From positions 1 through 20,723 of IMG/VR virus record IMGVR_UViG_3300020083_000864: 20,723 nucleotides of DNA; one strand, written 5' to 3'. Below, piece after piece: positions 1 through 20,087 of the stretch. Position 1 is the first letter of the stretch. The number at the start of each line of letters is the position of its first letter. The stretch comes from a virus. The notes beneath the pieces are model-generated. The model ran no database searches. It saw only the letters and a list, made by a program, of their open reading frames with translations, and had not been told where the DNA came from. Position numbers and translations under genes: made by a program.

Positions 1-264
1 GGTGAAGAAAACATTCACAGCCTATATTGCACTCCATCATCCGCTGCCAAAAGAGAGGTTCTTATCCTCAATAGAGATAAGGGTCACATATGGGTAGACG
101 ATAATATATCAAATGTTGAACTTGGTGAAGAATTAGGATATGAGTCAATTTTATACACATCTCCCTATAATAAGCACTACAAAGTTGAACCGCCAATGAA
201 ACGTGTAGATTCATGGAGAGAAATATATAATAGAATCAAGGAACTAGAAAAAGGCGGGTTTTAA
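1..264 (+). CDS. HAD-superfamily 5'-nucleotidase-like protein, 3' part only
   Basis: An open frame runs from the first base to a TAA at 262-264, so the 5' end lies outside the window; 87 residues are visible. The fragment contains a hydrophobic strand leading into V-D-D at visible residues 32-34 (context HIWVDDNISN), then a conserved-looking 'elGyesIlYtsPYN' stretch and a C-terminal 'RVDSWREIY' segment. This arrangement is typical of the C-terminal third of HAD phosphatases of the 5'(3')-deoxyribonucleotidase type, where the DD pair binds the metal and the following Asn and Pro-Tyr-Asn close the site. A role in nucleotide dephosphorylation is inferred from family only; the nucleophile Asp motif is not in the window. 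The stop codon sits in the loop of a terminator hairpin. Confidence 0.6.
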   Translation, partial: GEENIHSLYCTPSSAAKREVLILNRDKGHIWVDDNISNVELGEELGYESILYTSPYNKHYKVEPPMKRVDSWREIYNRIKELEKGGF

Positions 265-278
265 TACTCGCTTTTTTT
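254..278 (+). terminator. Intrinsic terminator after the HAD gene
   Basis: Six-pair stem GCGGGT (254-259) with ACTCGC (266-271), one G-U pair, six-base loop, then seven T (272-278). The loop contains the stop codon of the HAD gene. It isolates the next gene, which has its own late promoter 35 bases downstream. Confidence 0.7.
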
Positions 279-312
279 ATGACTGATTTTAGATTATGAA
301 GATGCCTCGTCG

Positions 313-2970: not shown

Positions 2971-2999
2971 TTGACAGTTACATCCGAATCGGTTATAAG
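2971..2999 (+). promoter_or_regulatory. Near-consensus sigma70 promoter before the DUF932 gene
   Basis: TTGACA (2971-2976), exactly 17 bases, then TATAAG (2994-2999), which is 11 of 12 consensus positions. The transcript would begin around 3006, 34 bases before the ATG at 3040. It should be read by host polymerase immediately after infection. Confidence 0.8.
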
Positions 3000-3039
3000 T
3001 TCTGTATCGAAAGACACAAACCTTATAGGAGTATTTATA

Positions 3040-4008
3040 ATGCATGAACTTGAAATCCTGAGCAACGGCACCGCTTCTATGGCTTATCGCGCCAGCAATG
3101 GCAAACCTTGGCATGGCCTTGGTGTTCCTGTCGGTGATGATATGACTCCCGCAGAAATCATGAAAGCTGCCAACCTTGATTGGACCGTGAGCAAACATGA
3201 GATGTTCATTGAAGGTGATTTTGGCGCTGGCCTGCAACGGGTCAAAACCGGAAAAGATGCTCTTGTTCGCGATAGCGACGGCAAGATCATGACTATTGTT
3301 GGTGAAAACTGGAAAGAAGTTCAAAACAGCGAAGCATTCAACTTCTTCCACGATTTTGTTGAAAAAGGCGACATGGTTATGGATACCGCTGGTGCGCTGA
3401 AAGATGGCCGCATTGTCTGGGCGCTTGCTTCGATCAAGGATGGCTTCACCCTCTTCAACGGCGATGAAGTGAAAGGCTACCTGCTTTTCAGCAACCCGCA
3501 CCTTTACGGTAAGTCGATTGATATCCGTTTCTGCGCCGAGCGTGTTGTTTGCAATAACACCCTGACTATGGCTCTGGCAGAACGCGGAAAAAATGCTGTG
3601 AAAATCAACCACCGCTCGGTCTTTGATGCTGATCGCGTCAAATCCATCCTTGGTGTTTCTTCCGACAAACTGAATAACTTCAAGGAAGCTGCTGAATTCC
3701 TTGGTTCGAAGAAATTCACCAAAGAAGCTCTGACCGAATACTATGGCACTCTTTTTGGTAAATCTGAAATGGAAGGCAAAGACCTTTCTCGGAATGGTCA
3801 GATTGTCATGGACCTGATCGAAAATCAACCGGGCGCTGAGTATCAAGCTGGAACCTTCTGGCAGGCGTTCAACGCTGTTACTTACGCAACCGATCACGTT
3901 CTTGGTCGTGAAAACGATACTCGTCTTGAATCGGCTTGGTTTGGTAAAAACTCCAATGTGAAACAGCAAGCCCTTACTCTTGCACTTGACATGGCGAAGG
4001 TTGCGTAA
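3040..4008 (+). CDS. DUF932 / TIGR03299 phage-plasmid protein
   Basis: 322 residues from the ATG at 3040, which follows AGGAG (3027-3031). An in-frame TTG at 2971 is rejected because it is the promoter -35 box. The N terminus has the family signature 'MAYRASNGKPWHGLGVPV' (about residues 9-26) followed by 'MTPAEIMKAANLDWTV', as in phage/plasmid-like TIGR03299 proteins; the body ends with 'WQAFNAVTYATDHVLG', also typical. Function in the family is unknown. Base composition differs sharply from its neighbours: two sampled 60-base stretches give about 53-57% G+C against about 32% in a phoH stretch, with many C- or G-ending codons. With its strong promoter this suggests high early expression, or recent acquisition. 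Confidence 0.85.
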   Translation: MHELEILSNGTASMAYRASNGKPWHGLGVPVGDDMTPAEIMKAANLDWTVSKHEMFIEGDFGAGLQRVKTGKDALVRDSDGKIMTIVGENWKEVQNSEAFNFFHDFVEKGDMVMDTAGALKDGRIVWALASIKDGFTLFNGDEVKGYLLFSNPHLYGKSIDIRFCAERVVCNNTLTMALAERGKNAVKINHRSVFDADRVKSILGVSSDKLNNFKEAAEFLGSKKFTKEALTEYYGTLFGKSEMEGKDLSRNGQIVMDLIENQPGAEYQAGTFWQAFNAVTYATDHVLGRENDTRLESAWFGKNSNVKQQALTLALDMAKVA

Positions 4009-6481: not shown

Positions 6482-6760
6482 ATGCAAAATCGTCCTTGGG
6501 ATATTTGGTGGGATTTTCACTGGAATGACAATGAAGGTTGCATCAGCGGCATTGTAATTGAAACCAATCTACCGGGACATAATGGCTTTCTACACAAATA
6601 TTCAATTTATGATATTGTGGATGAAAATGGTCATGTTGATCTTTGGATTGAAAACGAATTCCAACAAATCAGGGACGATTTAAAATCTGGTAGGGTATCA
6701 ATTAACAAAGTCGATAGTAAGTATTTTAATAAATTTAAAAGGAAAGTAAAATGTCAGTAA
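6482..6760 (+). CDS. Hypothetical protein, Trp-rich N terminus
   Basis: 92 residues, unrecognised. The ATG is four bases after the gapR stop, and GGAG within the last gapR codons (about 6471-6474) serves as ribosome site, so translation is probably coupled. The N terminus is striking: five Trp in the first 18 residues (RPWDIWWDFHWND), followed by a beta-rich middle and a basic C terminus (KYFNKFKRKVKCQ). It overlaps the next gene by ten bases. There is no membrane segment. No function can be assigned. Confidence 0.7.
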   Translation: MQNRPWDIWWDFHWNDNEGCISGIVIETNLPGHNGFLHKYSIYDIVDENGHVDLWIENEFQQIRDDLKSGRVSINKVDSKYFNKFKRKVKCQ

Positions 6761-7176
6761 TATCAGATATTAAAGCTGCCAGAGTTTCGGCACTTAAAAA
6801 TAAACAAAAAGATGTGGCATCATTTCTAAGCTTTGTGATTGGCTCTCTAGAGGCTATTGGTAAAAATGCTGGCAACCGTGAGACTACGGATGATGAAGCC
6901 ATTGCAGCTATCAAGAAGATTATTCAGAAAAATAATGAAATTCTGGAAGTATCTAAATCAGAAGCGACGAATGCAAGCCTATCATTTCAAAATGAGATTT
7001 TAGAATTGTATCTTCCGCAGATGGTCAGCGAAGATGATCTTCGTGCCTTCATCAACTCTATTTCACTTGACAACCCCAACAAAGGTCTGTATATGAAAGA
7101 GGTCAAGGCTAAGTATGGGCAATCAGTAGACATGAAGCTTGCAGGCAAGATAATTGACGAAAAACTATCGGATTAA
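6751..7176 (+). CDS. YqeY/GatB-like protein
   Basis: 141 residues, close to the roughly 150 of bacterial YqeY. AAGGAAAG lies within the preceding gene. Family features in order: N-terminal 'ISDIKAARVSALKNKQKDVASFLSFVIGSLE' helix, 'TDDEAIAAIKKIIQKNNE', 'FQNEILELYLPQMVSEDDL' with the characteristic Glu-x3-Leu-x2-Tyr-Leu-Pro-x2-Val/Leu, and a C-terminal helix pair with 'KAKYGQSVDMKLAGKIIDEKL'. YqeY resembles the tRNA-binding tail domain of GatB in tRNA amidotransferase; its biological role is uncertain. Its neighbour is a peptidyl-tRNA hydrolase-like gene four bases downstream, which fits a tRNA-related module. Confidence 0.85.
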   Translation: MSVISDIKAARVSALKNKQKDVASFLSFVIGSLEAIGKNAGNRETTDDEAIAAIKKIIQKNNEILEVSKSEATNASLSFQNEILELYLPQMVSEDDLRAFINSISLDNPNKGLYMKEVKAKYGQSVDMKLAGKIIDEKLSD

Positions 7177-7579: not shown

Positions 7580-8076
7580 AGTATTATGCAGGAATAGGAA
7601 GTCGCGCGACTCCTACTAAGTTCAAATCTATCATGGCAAACACTGCAACTTTTCTTTATGAGAAAGGTTATATACTAAGGTCTGGCGGTGCGGCTGGTGC
7701 AGATTCTTTCTTTGAAGAAGGCGCACCACCAGAGGGTAGACGGATATACCTTCCGTTCGATGGGTTTCAGAAAAAATTCGTCAACGGTAAGGATTATATC
7801 ATTCCACCCTTTAACGACTACTACACCAAAAAGCTGCATCCGAAACCAAACAGGCTCAACGAAGACGGTCAGTTATATATGTCAAGAAATGCAAATCAGG
7901 TGTTAGGAGATGATCTTAAAACGCCTGCATCTTTCATATTGTGCTGGACGCCAAATGGTGAGATGACAGGTGGGACAGCCCAAGCGATTCGCATCGCCAA
8001 GTTGTATAACATTCCAGTATTTAATTTTGCGACTCAGATACCAGAGATTAAATACTACTTAGAAAATTTTATTTGA
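7576..8076 (+). CDS. SLOG/DprA-like nucleotide-binding protein
   Basis: 166 residues; start overlaps the previous stop as ATGA. Features of the SLOG (SMF/DprA-LOG) Rossmann fold: 'YYAGIGSRATP' (residues 3-13), 'LRSGGAAGADSFFEEGA' (34-50) with the Gly-Gly-Ala-x-Gly-Ala-Asp loop, 'RIYLPFDGF' (56-64), and 'LCWTPNGEMTGGTAQAIRIA' (122-141) with Thr-Gly-Gly-Thr. SLOG domains bind nucleotides or nucleotide-derived ligands; related domains act in DprA DNA loading, in LOG cytokinin enzymes and as sensors in Thoeris ThsA. Being translationally joined to NadE suggests a ligand from NAD metabolism, but this is inference. Confidence 0.85.
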   Translation: MKYYAGIGSRATPTKFKSIMANTATFLYEKGYILRSGGAAGADSFFEEGAPPEGRRIYLPFDGFQKKFVNGKDYIIPPFNDYYTKKLHPKPNRLNEDGQLYMSRNANQVLGDDLKTPASFILCWTPNGEMTGGTAQAIRIAKLYNIPVFNFATQIPEIKYYLENFI

Positions 8077-8087
8077 AAGGAAGACAC

Positions 8088-9197
8088 ATGGATGTAAAAT
8101 CTATGCTAGAAAATGCTACCAATGCTGCAATCGAATATGACAACGGGATTTTTGAACGAATTCTTTACAACTCCCGACAGAATGAAGCAGAACCACTAAG
8201 CCCTTGGATGCACCATATGCTAAAAAGCGTAGTTTGTAAACCACTATATTTTTATCATGGACATGAGCAAGATATTACGGATTATGTTGTAAGTTCAGTT
8301 ATAGATTATGTTGATGCAACGGGCATTACAAACTTTGTTGTAGGCGTTTCAGGTGGCGCAGATTCCGCAACCGTTCTAGCCGTTCTTAAAGCAGCACAAG
8401 CAAAAAACTCAGACATTAAAATTCACGCATATACCCTTCCTATTAATCAAAAACCAAAAGAAGTCGATCTTGCAAAAGAAGTGTGTGAATTTCTTGGCAT
8501 TAAACTCAACTACAAAGATTTGACTTATGCAGCAAGTGTTATGGTAGATGATATTGGATTAGATTCTGAAAATTCCAGTGATTACAATATACGTAGGGGA
8601 AATGTATATGCTAGACTGCGTATGACATACCTGTATGATGCTGCCAAGTCTGTAAATGGCATTGTGGTAAGCACTGACAATTTCTCAGAATATTCAGCAG
8701 GCTTATTCACAGTGAACGGTGATGTGGGAGACTTTGCCCCTCTACAAAGCTTCTTCAAATCCACAGAAATTCCTGTAATTGCACAAGAGCTAGGTCTGCC
8801 CGAAAAGTTCTGGCGCGTTGTCCCTACGGACGGATTAGGCATTTCAAATTCAGATGAAGACCAACTTGGTATGACTTATCTTGAATGGGATATTCTCACG
8901 ATATCATATCTTTCATTAGTCGGAATTACTAACAAATATATGGAAGCAAAAACAGGCATTGAGCATATCAAGTTTGACCATGAAATGGTTGAAGAGGTAA
9001 TTCTTCTAGGCGTATCAGATGAAATGGAAGCATCTGAACAAGATAAAGAAAAGCTTAAAATCTTTCTAGACAGAATTTATTCAACATGGTTCAAACGATA
9101 CGGAACAATTAGAGTAACAGATGGTGTAGTGAATAAACTAGAACTATTACACTATACTGAGATTGCGACTACTGTTCCAGACAGTCCAATGTTCTAA
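8088..9197 (+). CDS. nadE: NAD+ synthetase, ammonia-dependent type
   Basis: 369 residues from the ATG at 8088, which follows AAAGGAAG; an in-frame TTG at 8073 overlaps the previous stop. The PP-loop is SGGADS (88-93), then 'RRGNVYARLRMTYLYD' (169-184), 'VVSTDNFSEYSAGLFTVNGD' (193-212), 'DFAPLQSFFKSTEI' (215-228) and 'DEDQLGMTYLEWD' (256-268), all NadE signatures. The enzyme adenylates nicotinic acid adenine dinucleotide and amidates it to NAD+. There is no glutaminase domain, so ammonia would be the nitrogen donor. At 369 residues it exceeds E. coli NadE (275) by an N-terminal arm of about 70 residues and a longer C-terminal part. It probably raises NAD+ during infection, which could offset NAD-depleting host defences. 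Confidence 0.93.
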   Translation: MDVKSMLENATNAAIEYDNGIFERILYNSRQNEAEPLSPWMHHMLKSVVCKPLYFYHGHEQDITDYVVSSVIDYVDATGITNFVVGVSGGADSATVLAVLKAAQAKNSDIKIHAYTLPINQKPKEVDLAKEVCEFLGIKLNYKDLTYAASVMVDDIGLDSENSSDYNIRRGNVYARLRMTYLYDAAKSVNGIVVSTDNFSEYSAGLFTVNGDVGDFAPLQSFFKSTEIPVIAQELGLPEKFWRVVPTDGLGISNSDEDQLGMTYLEWDILTISYLSLVGITNKYMEAKTGIEHIKFDHEMVEEVILLGVSDEMEASEQDKEKLKIFLDRIYSTWFKRYGTIRVTDGVVNKLELLHYTEIATTVPDSPMF

Positions 9198-17412: not shown

Positions 17413-17420
17413 TATTTATA
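17413..17420 (-). promoter_or_regulatory. Late promoter for gene 18, distal
   Basis: Exact minus-strand TATAAATA overlapping the gp17 stop codon (17416-17418). It forms a tandem pair with the copy at 17384. Confidence 0.75.
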
Positions 17421-19059
17421 GGTTGACGGGTTTCCAGTATGAATTATCATCGGCATTGCCATCATTAATGTAGAAAAATGGCATAACCATATCATCTAAT
17501 TCGTCGTCTGTCTTTTCTCTTAATTTATTTAATGTATTTATATCAGTCATTTCAGCAAAATAGCCCTGATCGGACAACCATGCAAATAAAACTAGAGTCA
17601 TAACAAGGTCATCGTGAGAACCTTTTTCAGCAGCATAGCTATTATTTTTCTTTGAAAATCTTCTCAATTCGTCAATAGTGTTTTCGTCACAAATAATTAA
17701 CTGATTTTGTTCTATAAGAAGCTTCAAGATGGAGCATCCAATAATCTTTACCTTTTCAGATGTTCTAATACCTCTGTCTACGTTTCTACCAAAACCACCT
17801 GATATTCTTTTACCTGAACGCCCATTAGTTTCTGTAGAAAGAACATTCTCGTAACCAAAGTCCATCCACAAACTGTCTGCTACCTGTCCACCAATATCGT
17901 TAACTTCTATCAAAACCATCGCTTCATTATATTTCTTTGCGAAATTATGAATAACCGCAGCATAGTCAATTGGACCTATTTCATTGTTTCTATAAACACA
18001 TACCTGTTTGTAAGGCATCTCTGTAACGTCAATAATTGAAAATGCAGAATAGTCCAAACCTTTTCCACGCCCAACGTCTGAAATAAGAGCATATTGTCTG
18101 TCAGCTTTGACTTGCTCATACTGGAATATATTATTTGAATGTTGAAGAGGTCTTTTTGCAACCAAATTGGACAAACCTTGAGATGAAATCAAAGTGTCAG
18201 AGCTACCAATGAATGAGCAATCAAATTCCTGATTGAACTGATCGTAGTTCCAACCTAAGCTGGCAAGAGCATCTTGTTTCCATTTTTCATCTCTACCCGG
18301 CACACGATCCCATTTAACTTCAATATAAATGAAACCATTTTTTCCAACATTAGAGCCTGCCTTTTCCGCTTCTGGCGAAATTTCCATGGCTTCGGTGCAT
18401 ATCTTATAAAAATGATTCATACCTTTGGGGGTTGATGTTAAAAGAACTTTACTTTCTTTACCAGATGAAATTGTAGGATAAACTGAGGCGTAGAATTCGT
18501 CCCAATTTTCCAAGAATGCTGTTTCGTCAATATACAAAAACGCAACAGCTTTACCACGAATAGCAGATGAGCTAGAGGCAGCAGCCAGAACTTTACATCC
18601 ATTTTCTAATTCAATAGAACCTTTATTCCATTCCATAACACCTTGTTGCAAGAATTTAGGAAGGTTTTGATATGATATTTGAATTCTGTCCATAATTTCA
18701 CGTGCTGCGTCAGCTTTGTTAGCAAGTAGAGCAACAGTTTTATGTTCATTAAATAGAATGTAGTGTAGAATAATTGCGGATGCAGATGTAGTTTTACCAG
18801 ACTGTCTAGCAGTGTTGACTACAACCCTTCTATTATTTGTAATTGATGTTATAATTTCTTTTTGATAATCGTAGAGTTTAATAGGTATCAAACCTTCATT
18901 CATGTTTACGATGTAGATATATTTCTCTGCAAAGTAAATTGGGTCTTTGGCGCACTTTTGAAACTCCATAAGCATTTCATAAGTCCACTCAATTTTCTCT
19001 CCATGTTTTTTTAATAGCGGGTTGCCTAAGTAACCGCCACTGTCTTTCTTTTCTGCCAT
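17416..19059 (-). CDS. 17: Terminase large subunit gp17
   Basis: 547 residues (T4: 610). The ATPase domain has the Q-like 'LYDYQKEII' (62-70), Walker A ARQSGKTT (84-91), Walker B FLYIDE (174-179, catalytic Glu179) and the C-motif TST (208-210). The nuclease domain has Asp328 in 'LISDVGRGKGLDYS', Glu385 in 'VLIEVND' and Asp483-Asp484 in 'SHDDLVMT', matching the T4 acidic triad. It packages DNA into the prohead through gp20 and cuts the concatemer. The ATG is one base past the stop of the small ATPase gene and has only a weak ribosome site, so translational coupling to that gene is likely. Confidence 0.97.
   Translation of the reverse strand: MAEKKDSGGYLGNPLLKKHGEKIEWTYEMLMEFQKCAKDPIYFAEKYIYIVNMNEGLIPIKLYDYQKEIITSITNNRRVVVNTARQSGKTTSASAIILHYILFNEHKTVALLANKADAAREIMDRIQISYQNLPKFLQQGVMEWNKGSIELENGCKVLAAASSSSAIRGKAVAFLYIDETAFLENWDEFYASVYPTISSGKESKVLLTSTPKGMNHFYKICTEAMEISPEAEKAGSNVGKNGFIYIEVKWDRVPGRDEKWKQDALASLGWNYDQFNQEFDCSFIGSSDTLISSQGLSNLVAKRPLQHSNNIFQYEQVKADRQYALISDVGRGKGLDYSAFSIIDVTEMPYKQVCVYRNNEIGPIDYAAVIHNFAKKYNEAMVLIEVNDIGGQVADSLWMDFGYENVLSTETNGRSGKRISGGFGRNVDRGIRTSEKVKIIGCSILKLLIEQNQLIICDENTIDELRRFSKKNNSYAAEKGSHDDLVMTLVLFAWLSDQGYFAEMTDINTLNKLREKTDDELDDMVMPFFYINDGNADDNSYWKPVNL
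17535..17542 (-). promoter_or_regulatory. Possible intragenic late promoter in gene 17
   Basis: Exact minus-strand TATAAATA inside the 3' end of gene 17, about 200 bases before the gp18 start. It may be a third gene 18 promoter or a chance match in AT-rich coding sequence. Confidence 0.35.
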
Positions 19060-19060
19060 T

Positions 19061-19543
19061 TTATTCCATATATACCTTATTAAAATTCCTCAAATCATCC
19101 ACTTCGGATGTTGAGGTTGCTATTATTTTTGATTTTAAATTTGTTGCTAGGCATGGATATATACTGACCATGCAATCGTAAAAATCGTATAAATCTATAT
19201 TGTCAAGCAAAACAACGTCGAGGGAATACCCGCGCATCTTGTGAGTTTCACTAGTCCCAAATGCTATTATAGAATTTATTTTTTCACTTGCGATTTCTTT
19301 TTTGTCTACTTTTGAGATAATTTTATCATCACCGCTCTTACTGATTATCAAATTGACTATTTCATCTCTTTTGGAAAGAGAACTACTGTAGTCCTTATCT
19401 ATTATCAGTATTCTAAAATTACCTTTTAGAAAATGCTCTGCTGCTAGTTCTATTAACAGAGATGTTTTTCCTGCGCCTCTTTTACCTATTACTAATGTTT
19501 TATTTGTGAATAACGAATTAAATCTGTCACTAAAAGCTTCCAT
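19061..19543 (-). CDS. Stand-alone terminase-like P-loop ATPase domain
   Basis: 160 residues, encoded between gp16 (7-base gap) and gp17 (1-base gap); GAGG precedes the ATG. Walker A is GKRGAGKTS (residues 20-28) and the Walker B region is DVVLLDNID (109-117). It matches gp17 in order and spacing: Walker A Lys26 to Walker B Asp114 is 88 residues here and 89 in gp17. 'HKMRGYSLDVVLLDNIDLYD' aligns with the gp17 stretch beginning 'AIRGKAVAFLYIDETAFLE', 'SIYPCLATNLKSKIIATSTS' aligns with 'SVYPTISSGKESKVLLTSTP', and the protein ends just after this C-motif. It lacks a nuclease domain. The position of the catalytic Glu of gp17 is Asn115 here, so hydrolysis may be impaired. T4 has no gene here. A role in packaging-motor assembly or regulation is inferred. 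Confidence 0.75.
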   Translation of the reverse strand: MEAFSDRFNSLFTNKTLVIGKRGAGKTSLLIELAAEHFLKGNFRILIIDKDYSSSLSKRDEIVNLIISKSGDDKIISKVDKKEIASEKINSIIAFGTSETHKMRGYSLDVVLLDNIDLYDFYDCMVSIYPCLATNLKSKIIATSTSEVDDLRNFNKVYME

Positions 19544-19550
19544 ATAAACC

Positions 19551-20087
19551 TCATTTTTTAAGTGTTTTTAATATTTCTGCTGTAGTTAAAATGACAGTGT
19601 TATTTGTTGTGTTGTTAGTAATACCGTTAGCATCTCTATTTTTCATAGTTTTTGCGTCACGCTTCATGTTGGACAGGTTAGCCATTTCTTTGTTAGCATC
19701 AACTAGAGTTTTGAGTAATCTAGAAGCAGAATCAAATGCAGTTGGATTTTCTGTCTGAGTGGCGACGAGAAGTAATTTCTCAAACGCCCAATGACCATCC
19801 ACTATCATTTTAGAAACGTTTTTCTTGGCCTTAGTAACATCATCAATATATTCTTTATCTATTTCAGATTCAAATATAGCAACATCATTTGTATCATTGT
19901 CAATAATTTCAGCATGTGTTTCTTCATAATCAACCAATTCATTTGATTGAGTTGTTTCATTCTCGGTCACGTCTTCTGCAATAGTTTCTTCAACTATCTC
20001 TGCGTCTTCTATCTCAGAGTTAACGTCATCTCTCATGTCAGGCATACTAGGCAAGCCCAATGCCTTTGATATGATATCATCGCTCAT
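19551..20087 (-). CDS. 16: Terminase small subunit gp16
   Basis: 178 residues (T4: 164), with AGGAAAA before the ATG. Residues about 20-80 are acidic and probably disordered. The conserved core follows: 'DDVTKAKKNVSKMIVDGHWAFEKLLLVATQTENPTAFDSASRLLKTLVDANKEMANL' is the T4 gp16 pattern of a helical hairpin with 'p.afe..s.LlkTl.dAN..l..l'. The C terminus has 'NNTTNNTVILTTAEILKTL', which may contact gp17. gp16 binds phage DNA as a ring and stimulates the gp17 ATPase. The gene lies directly after gp15 (9-base gap) as in T4. Confidence 0.85.
   Translation of the reverse strand: MSDDIISKALGLPSMPDMRDDVNSEIEDAEIVEETIAEDVTENETTQSNELVDYEETHAEIIDNDTNDVAIFESEIDKEYIDDVTKAKKNVSKMIVDGHWAFEKLLLVATQTENPTAFDSASRLLKTLVDANKEMANLSNMKRDAKTMKNRDANGITNNTTNNTVILTTAEILKTLKK

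Follow-up and report, generated by a model that had tools for sequence, protein, structure and literature searches.

A terminase ATPase paralogue with changed catalytic residues in the gp16-gp17 slot of a virus with T4-ordered late genes

Introduction

The packaging motor of phage T4 is a ring of five gp17 subunits that is regulated by gp16 (excerpts of PMC8589836 and PMC9958956). According to the excerpted text of PMC3012670 and PMC9958956, changes to the predicted catalytic residues of gp17, even swaps between Asp and Glu, abolish packaging, and a Glu-Asp switch mutant, although its ATP binding is tighter, does not hydrolyze the nucleotide. The Q163A mutant, described in the excerpted text of PMC8589836 (in which one figure legend reads Q143A), is impaired in ATP hydrolysis and its bulk packaging is undetectable. 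The mutant protein binds heads like wild type and enters pentamers, and motors still work, with impaired packaging, when up to two or three of their subunits are Q163A (PMC8589836, excerpt). Engineered inactive subunits have in this way been used to study subunit coordination (PMC8589836, excerpt).

In T4 itself, gp16 and gp17 overlap and no gene lies between them; the initial annotation of the locus described here likewise had gp17 directly after gp16 in T4. ATPase-only terminase genes are already annotated in this slot in Sinorhizobium phages: phiM12 (KF381361) carries a 196-aa ‘gp17.2, terminase large subunit’ (SmphiM12_113) and phiN3 (KR052482) a 194-aa terminase gene (PHIN3_97). Our literature search, whose coverage left out most subscription journals, found no paper on ATPase-only terminase genes in this slot. 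Here we describe a more degenerate gene in the same position, P0001, from which the catalytic Glu is gone.

Results

A 160-codon gene lies between gp16 and gp17

The window, by which we mean the whole stretch of DNA analyzed, is the 20,723-nt viral record IMGVR_UViG_3300020083_000864. It is identical to a 284,776-bp IMG/VR contig across the 19,153 bases compared and to a 4,403-bp contig across 3,467 bases; as far as the records overlap, the window, L001 and L003 are one virus. Its minus-strand late genes follow the T4 order, namely gp15 (cut), gp16, P0001, gp17, gp18, gp19, gp20, gp21, scaffold and gp23, with the gp19 match (28.1 bits) falling slightly below its 28.2 cut-off. The terminase genes are laid out as follows.

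19551..20087, minus strand: gp16, small terminase, 178 aa (phrog_445, E=7.6e-11)
19549..19552, minus strand: GAGG, ribosome-binding-like site of P0001, 5 nt before the ATG and overlapping the gp16 stop, read from the sequence
19061..19543, minus strand: P0001, 160-aa terminase-ATPase subdomain I paralogue, an ORF with an ATG start and with PHROG, profile and fold matches
17416..19059, minus strand: gp17, full-length large terminase (Terminase_6N, 3.2e-26; Terminase_6C, 2.3e-10), with ARQSGKTT, YIDE and TSTP intact

P0001 thus occupies the gp16-gp17 slot on the same strand as its neighbors, its ATG 7 nt past the gp16 stop and its own stop 1 nt ahead of the gp17 ATG.

P0001 descends from the large-terminase ATPase

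It is near certain that P0001 descends from a T4-type large terminase ATPase. The highest of its 14 PHROG matches was PHROG 2, TerL (E=2e-8), in which P0001 residues 17-158 aligned with profile positions 281-412. A profile of the gp17 ATPase region, built from 109 gp17 rows that all came from other viruses and excluded the gp17 of this one, scored P0001 at 24.5 bits and residues 39-160 alone, without the Walker A half, at 25.0 bits. Not one of 20,000 shuffles reached the real score in each of three designs: shuffles of the full protein (best 12.6 bits), shuffles keeping residues 1-38 (best 16.4 bits), and shuffles of residues 39-160 (best 9.8 against the real 25.0 bits). Because residues 39-160 outscored all of their shuffles, the signal cannot be the Walker A motif alone, and the profile score arises from residues 77-147. 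Together with the PHROG 2 match, these scores bear out the initial reading of the gene as a terminase-ATPase paralogue.

Searching 5,071 ORFs from 171 loci with the gp17 profile (E≤0.1) matched 149 ORFs of at least 450 aa and 40 shorter ones. Recovery of gp17s by this profile is expected by construction, and the informative part is the gap between P0001 (E=3.9e-6) and the first match other than gp17, gp17.2 or P0001 (E=0.038). The shorter ORFs, named with an earlier version of the profile, comprised 19 gp17s cut by a contig end, three gp17.2 ORFs from two phages, two pieces of a broken gp17, 12 copies of P0001 that all come from this single virus, and four weak matches (E 0.038-0.056). The broken gp17 (L065:3384-5479) lies in two overlapping frames, reflecting a frameshift or an assembly error.

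The case for homology rests on profiles because direct BLASTP comparison was weak or nil: P0001 matched its own gp17 marginally (E=3e-4, a single 52-column segment) and did not match gp17.2. P0001 was likewise not recovered by phmmer with gp17 at E≤1e-5 across the surveyed loci, and Pfam Terminase_6N was missing from its matches at E≤1. The families that were listed were generic. Sixteen Pfam families matched P0001, the best being AAA_14 at 19.8 bits against a cut-off of 27. All 10 NCBIfam matches were under their cut-offs, led by VirB4_CagE (residues 15-55, E=2.8e-5, 22.5 against 643.1 bits), and included Rad50 (E=0.0083) and no terminase. In a phmmer search of the PDB, Rad50 came first (E=0.0035), with T4 gp17 chains at E 0.24-0.52. 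Rad50, VirB4 and AAA_14 match at or near Walker A (residues 14-91, 15-55 and 16-69, respectively), and we set them aside as identities for P0001 since the gp17 score comes from farther along the protein and holds without residues 1-38.

Two short PHROG families of unknown function, 1488 (177 aa) and 28229 (154 aa), match the window’s gp17 (E 8e-7 and 9e-6) and, weakly, P0001 (E 0.0011 and 0.047). They may be further ATPase-only relatives of the terminase.

P0001 is subdomain I alone and has lost three conserved positions

The active-site features of P0001 were assigned by alignment to gp17.

19460..19486, minus strand: Walker A GKRGAGKTS, residues 20-28; Arg22, Gly25, Lys26 and Thr27 kept (T4 R162, G165, K166, T167)
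19475..19477, minus strand: Gly23 replacing the Walker A Gln (T4 Q163), which is Gln in 114 of 114 gp17 rows
19193..19219, minus strand: Walker B DVVLLDNID, residues 109-117, by motif position and alignment
19199..19201, minus strand: Asn115 replacing the catalytic Glu (T4 E256), which is Glu in 114 of 114 gp17 rows
19109..19117, minus strand: C-motif (coupling motif) TST, residues 143-145 (T4 TTT, 285-287)

The corresponding motifs of the window’s gp17 are ARQSGKT from residue 84, FLYIDETA from 174 and TSTP from 208. Most of what had been described from the sequence alone was recovered by alignment. Asp114 corresponds to T4 D255, Thr143-Thr145 to T4 T285-T287, and Asn115 to Glu179 of the resident gp17 and Glu256 of T4. 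The spacing claimed for the motifs also holds, with 88 residues from Lys26 to Asp114 (89 from Lys89 to Asp178 in gp17) and 29 from Asp114 to Thr143 (30 in gp17), and the linking segments RGYSLD and SIYPCLA align with RGKAVA and SVYPTIS as proposed.

Two further losses went beyond that description: the Walker A Gln is Gly23, and Ser5 stands where gp17s have a nearly invariant upstream Gln. P0001 is therefore altered at three positions that gp17s keep invariant or almost invariant. The upstream Gln is known as the ‘Q-motif’, and the T4 counterpart of Arg22, Arg162, acts as the arginine finger. Across the 114 gp17 rows, 11 of which are over most of their extent duplicates of another row, there is no variation at the aligned active-site Arg, Gln, Lys, Asp and Glu; at the P-loop Gly, 110 rows have Gly and the four from phiM12 and phiN3 have Ala. 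P0001 retains Arg22, the Gly-Lys-Thr, Asp114 and Ser144-Thr145, and carries an acidic residue, Asp117, three past the Walker B Asp, where 113 of 114 gp17 rows have Ala.

P0001 starts too late to include the N-terminal stretch of gp17 and ends 15 residues past the TST; Terminase_6C does not match it and does match its own gp17. P0001 is thus the nucleotide-binding subdomain I only (T4 about 139-306), with neither subdomain II nor the RNase H-like nuclease/translocation domain. The initial annotation placed its end at the junction with the nuclease half; the protein in fact stops earlier, before subdomain II. In sum, P0001 has in common with T4-type gp17 (PF03237, PHROG 2) subdomain I, the P-loop Arg and GKT, the Walker B Asp, the C-motif and the RG segment, and differs from it in lacking subdomain II, the nuclease, the catalytic Glu, the Walker A Gln, the upstream Gln and the N-terminal stretch.

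Judged by these residues, P0001 may bind nucleotide without hydrolyzing it efficiently. With subdomain II and the translocation/nuclease domain absent, it would be unable to translocate or cut DNA and so to act as a full, working motor subunit, and the earlier suggestion that it might join the motor is not supported in the sense of a full subunit. The engineered T4 Q163A protein (PMC8589836, excerpt) is substituted at the equivalent Walker A Gln, but it is full-length and joins pentamers, whereas P0001 is subdomain I only and has also lost the catalytic Glu. Because inactive subunits impair T4 motors (PMC8589836, excerpt), P0001 could be pictured as a dominant-negative factor directed against the terminases of co-infecting related phages. 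We regard this as very unlikely, as P0001 would meet its own gp17 as well and lacks the domains needed to enter the ring as a full subunit.

gp17.2 of Sinorhizobium phages is the closest described counterpart

A tblastn search with gp17.2 gave at least 80% identity in seven of 2,512 matching phage records (two each for phiM7, phiM12 and phiN3, and one for phiM19). This protein is ATPase-only, 36% identical to the window’s gp17, and its motifs ERATGKTT and YIDE keep the Glu and show the Walker A Gln changed to Ala. Emdodecavirus gp17.2 and P0001 both lie in the gp16-gp17 slot beside a full-length gp17, and both consist of the ATPase part only, stopping just past the C-motif. The Walker A Gln is replaced in each (Ala in gp17.2, Gly23 in P0001), and three residues past the Walker B Asp each has an acidic residue (Glu in gp17.2, Asp117 in P0001). 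Unlike P0001, gp17.2 still has the N-terminal stretch, including its Gln, and the catalytic Glu, where P0001 has Asn115. The two proteins are 18-19% identical. We do not consider gp17.2 of phiM12 a fully competent ATPase, given the Ala at the T4 Q163 position, even though the Glu is kept.

Between phiM12 and phiN3 (L081:4405-4995 against L084:3001-3585), gp17.2 has a dN/dS of 0.205, from which we conclude that the ATPase-only paralogue of these phages is kept by selection for some function. At 0.48, its dS greatly exceeds the values for gp13-gp17 in the same pair (0.055-0.105), so gp17.2 has probably been swapped as a single-gene cassette.

The full-length gp17s of these same phages are themselves unusual, reading RQSAKTT rather than RQxGKT (phiM12, L081:4992-6623; phiN3, L084:3585-5216). 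These are the only four of 114 gp17 rows without the P-loop Gly, representing two phages twice each, and they are the phages with gp17.2.

P0001 is no more similar to the resident gp17 than to several other gp17s

P0001 is 20.5% identical to its own gp17 over 156 columns, several other gp17s score higher (up to 23.7%), and at most 25% of its residues are common to any gp17 aligned. An AU test found the grouping of P0001 with its own gp17 compatible with the data (p=0.386), which does not reject a recent duplication of the resident gene; nothing favors one. The description of P0001 as a duplicated, trimmed ATPase domain is supported for the trimming and not for duplication of the resident gp17, and the ATPase domain is not present as a whole. 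A route for gene 17 duplicates does exist, since gp16-dependent gene amplification occurs near the T4 pac site and gene 17 amplification mutants appear among the reference titles (PMC3012670, excerpt).

The branch leading to P0001 is very long, at 10 changes per column, and its grouping with gp17.2 in the tree carried no star (87/100) and could be an artifact of long-branch attraction. P0001 and gp17.2 have six rare residues in common against 2.9 expected, a result found in 1,258 of 20,000 permutations. Slot and architecture hint at a common ancestor for the two paralogues, which the tree, the AU tests and the shared rare residues do not bear out. Grouping of gp17.2 with phiM12 gp17 was rejected (uncorrected p=0.02; three AU tests were run), and the window’s gp17 clusters with the gp17s of phiM12, L004, XG4 and RHph_I1_18 in a clade with support of 100/98.

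P0001 was found in a single virus, in a slot that accepts cargo

At E≤1, tblastn with P0001 matched none of 50,697 phage records. Of six stretches matched in a scan of viral contigs, two were confirmed, both 100% identical, and none of the 61 stretches that fitted the pattern in genome contigs was confirmed. Two degenerate motif scans of viral contigs yielded one extra match, L171, and no true relative: L171 has only the P-loop stretch GKSGAGKTSLL in common with P0001 and does not match the gp17 profile. Such scans reach close relatives, and distant ones could escape them. Within these searches this version of P0001 occurs in one virus only (three records, identical where they overlap), so that a survey of related phages, as had been proposed, turns up an ATPase-only terminase gene in the phiM12 and phiN3 slot and this version nowhere else. 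As all copies found are identical, selection on P0001 is not measurable.

Among 160 loci with a plus-strand gp17, the gp16-gp17 gap was readable in 105; it was under 60 nt in 73 and 60 nt or more in 32, the latter including five records of this virus and three of phiM12 or phiN3. We inspected 14 of the other 24 wide-gap loci (L017, L040, L055, L074 and L150 are examples of wide gaps). Small ORFs were present in twelve of them; none matched the terminase profile, and several looked by eye to contain a hydrophobic segment. The other two (L105 and L120) had no gap ORF of 45 aa or more. The small ORFs indicate that the slot accepts cargo. One such ORF, of 156 aa in L150, has internal repeats.

This permissiveness bears on the possibility that P0001, though descended from a terminase ATPase, is a P-loop protein repurposed for a job unrelated to packaging. 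Its Walker A has the classical GxxxxGKT form, generic P-loop families match it weakly, and wide gaps often hold small ORFs that the terminase profile does not match. However, all 16 Pfam matches are under their curated cut-offs, the stretch past Walker A carries the terminase score, and a terminase ATPase paralogue in the same slot of other phages points to packaging; we think repurposing unlikely.

The nearest gp17 relatives with a readable gap (60-70% identity; L004, L006-L008, L030, L071 and L073) have no insert, their gap being -8; L005, L009, L010 and L057 fall outside this readable set. Absence from these relatives would be expected if P0001 were a relic: a terminase fragment, once duplicated or acquired, now decaying and without function. 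The loss of three active-site positions and the very long branch agree with decay, as does codon use: the codon score of P0001 (0.022) is the lowest among eight late genes (0.232-0.517 for the others), which fits recent arrival or weak constraint, although its reading frame still scores best of the three forward frames. Against decay, the frame has stayed open for 160 codons despite the low similarity to any gp17, and none of 100,000 base shuffles left it open over that length, a model that does not cover drift from a coding ancestor. Retention of the phosphate loop, the Arg, the Walker B Asp and the Ser-Thr also counts against it, as do the tight spacing to gp16 and gp17 and the purifying selection on gp17.2, the parallel case. 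A relic is improbable in our estimate, about as much so as a repurposed P-loop protein.

The predicted fold is consistent with gp17

Folded with an alignment of 30 rows (P0001, 28 gp17 segments and one gp17.2), P0001 gave a model with a pLDDT of 83.5 whose first Foldseek match was T4 gp17 (E=2.5e-7). By VIA, it aligned with T4 gp17 (2o0h 139..303) at Z 16.4 and rmsd 3.4 over 159 aligned residues, and other folds, including NAT10 and RNA helicases, reached Z 11-14. Structure prediction, which the initial annotation had put forward as a check, therefore agrees with the terminase assignment as a consistency check and not as independent proof, because the input held the gp17 alignment. The single-sequence fold (pLDDT 54.5) was uninformative, with no structural match at E≤0.001.

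The terminase chain bound to Avs3 (8dgc_E) was among the matches to the alignment-based model, at rank 16 by Foldseek and 9 by VIA. Avs1-4 recognize the large terminase, the portal or another phage protein (PMC12931631, excerpt), and the slot is variable, as might be expected if P0001 were a decoy, an inert ATPase look-alike that occupies an Avs-type STAND sensor of the large terminase or competes with gp17. An ATPase subdomain alone might equally trigger such a sensor rather than block its activation, and a position in the terminase operon is expected under a packaging role too. We consider a decoy decidedly improbable.

Discussion

We tentatively favor, at somewhat less than even odds, a reading in which P0001, a hydrolysis-dead paralogue of the terminase, modulates assembly or start-up of the holoterminase through gp16, gp17 or the portal. 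Made beside gp16 and gp17, P0001 would bind one of them or the portal through surfaces inherited from the ATPase domain, and could modulate the gp16/gp17 holoterminase, for example by competing for the stimulatory contact of gp16. Alternatively, it might cap a neighboring gp17 ATPase before the motor docks. P0001 could be likened to a dominant-inactive motor subunit without the wheel. The link to packaging is pointed to by gp17.2, a terminase ATPase paralogue in the same slot of other phages.

An ATPase-only paralogue altered at catalytic positions beside a full-length gp17 suggests a third terminase component, and it may represent a little-noticed way of regulating genome packaging. More generally, and more doubtfully, some T4-superfamily phages could have a hetero-oligomeric packaging apparatus with a dedicated, naturally inactive terminase-ATPase paralogue between gp16 and gp17. 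This exchangeable cassette, changed at the residue mutated in engineered inactive T4 subunits (Q163), would tune holoterminase assembly or motor start-up. A phage encoding its own inactive part would, if this is true, make subunit coordination testable by simple gene removal, a test that is feasible in phiM12 because that phage is cultured.

Elsewhere in the window, an ORF at 8073-9197 on the plus strand, possibly a phage NAD salvage gene, encodes 374 aa that include an NAD synthase domain (PF02540, E=2.6e-37), and PhoH-like, DUF932 and YqeY-like proteins are encoded on the same strand at 732-1466, 2971-4008 and 6751-7176, respectively.
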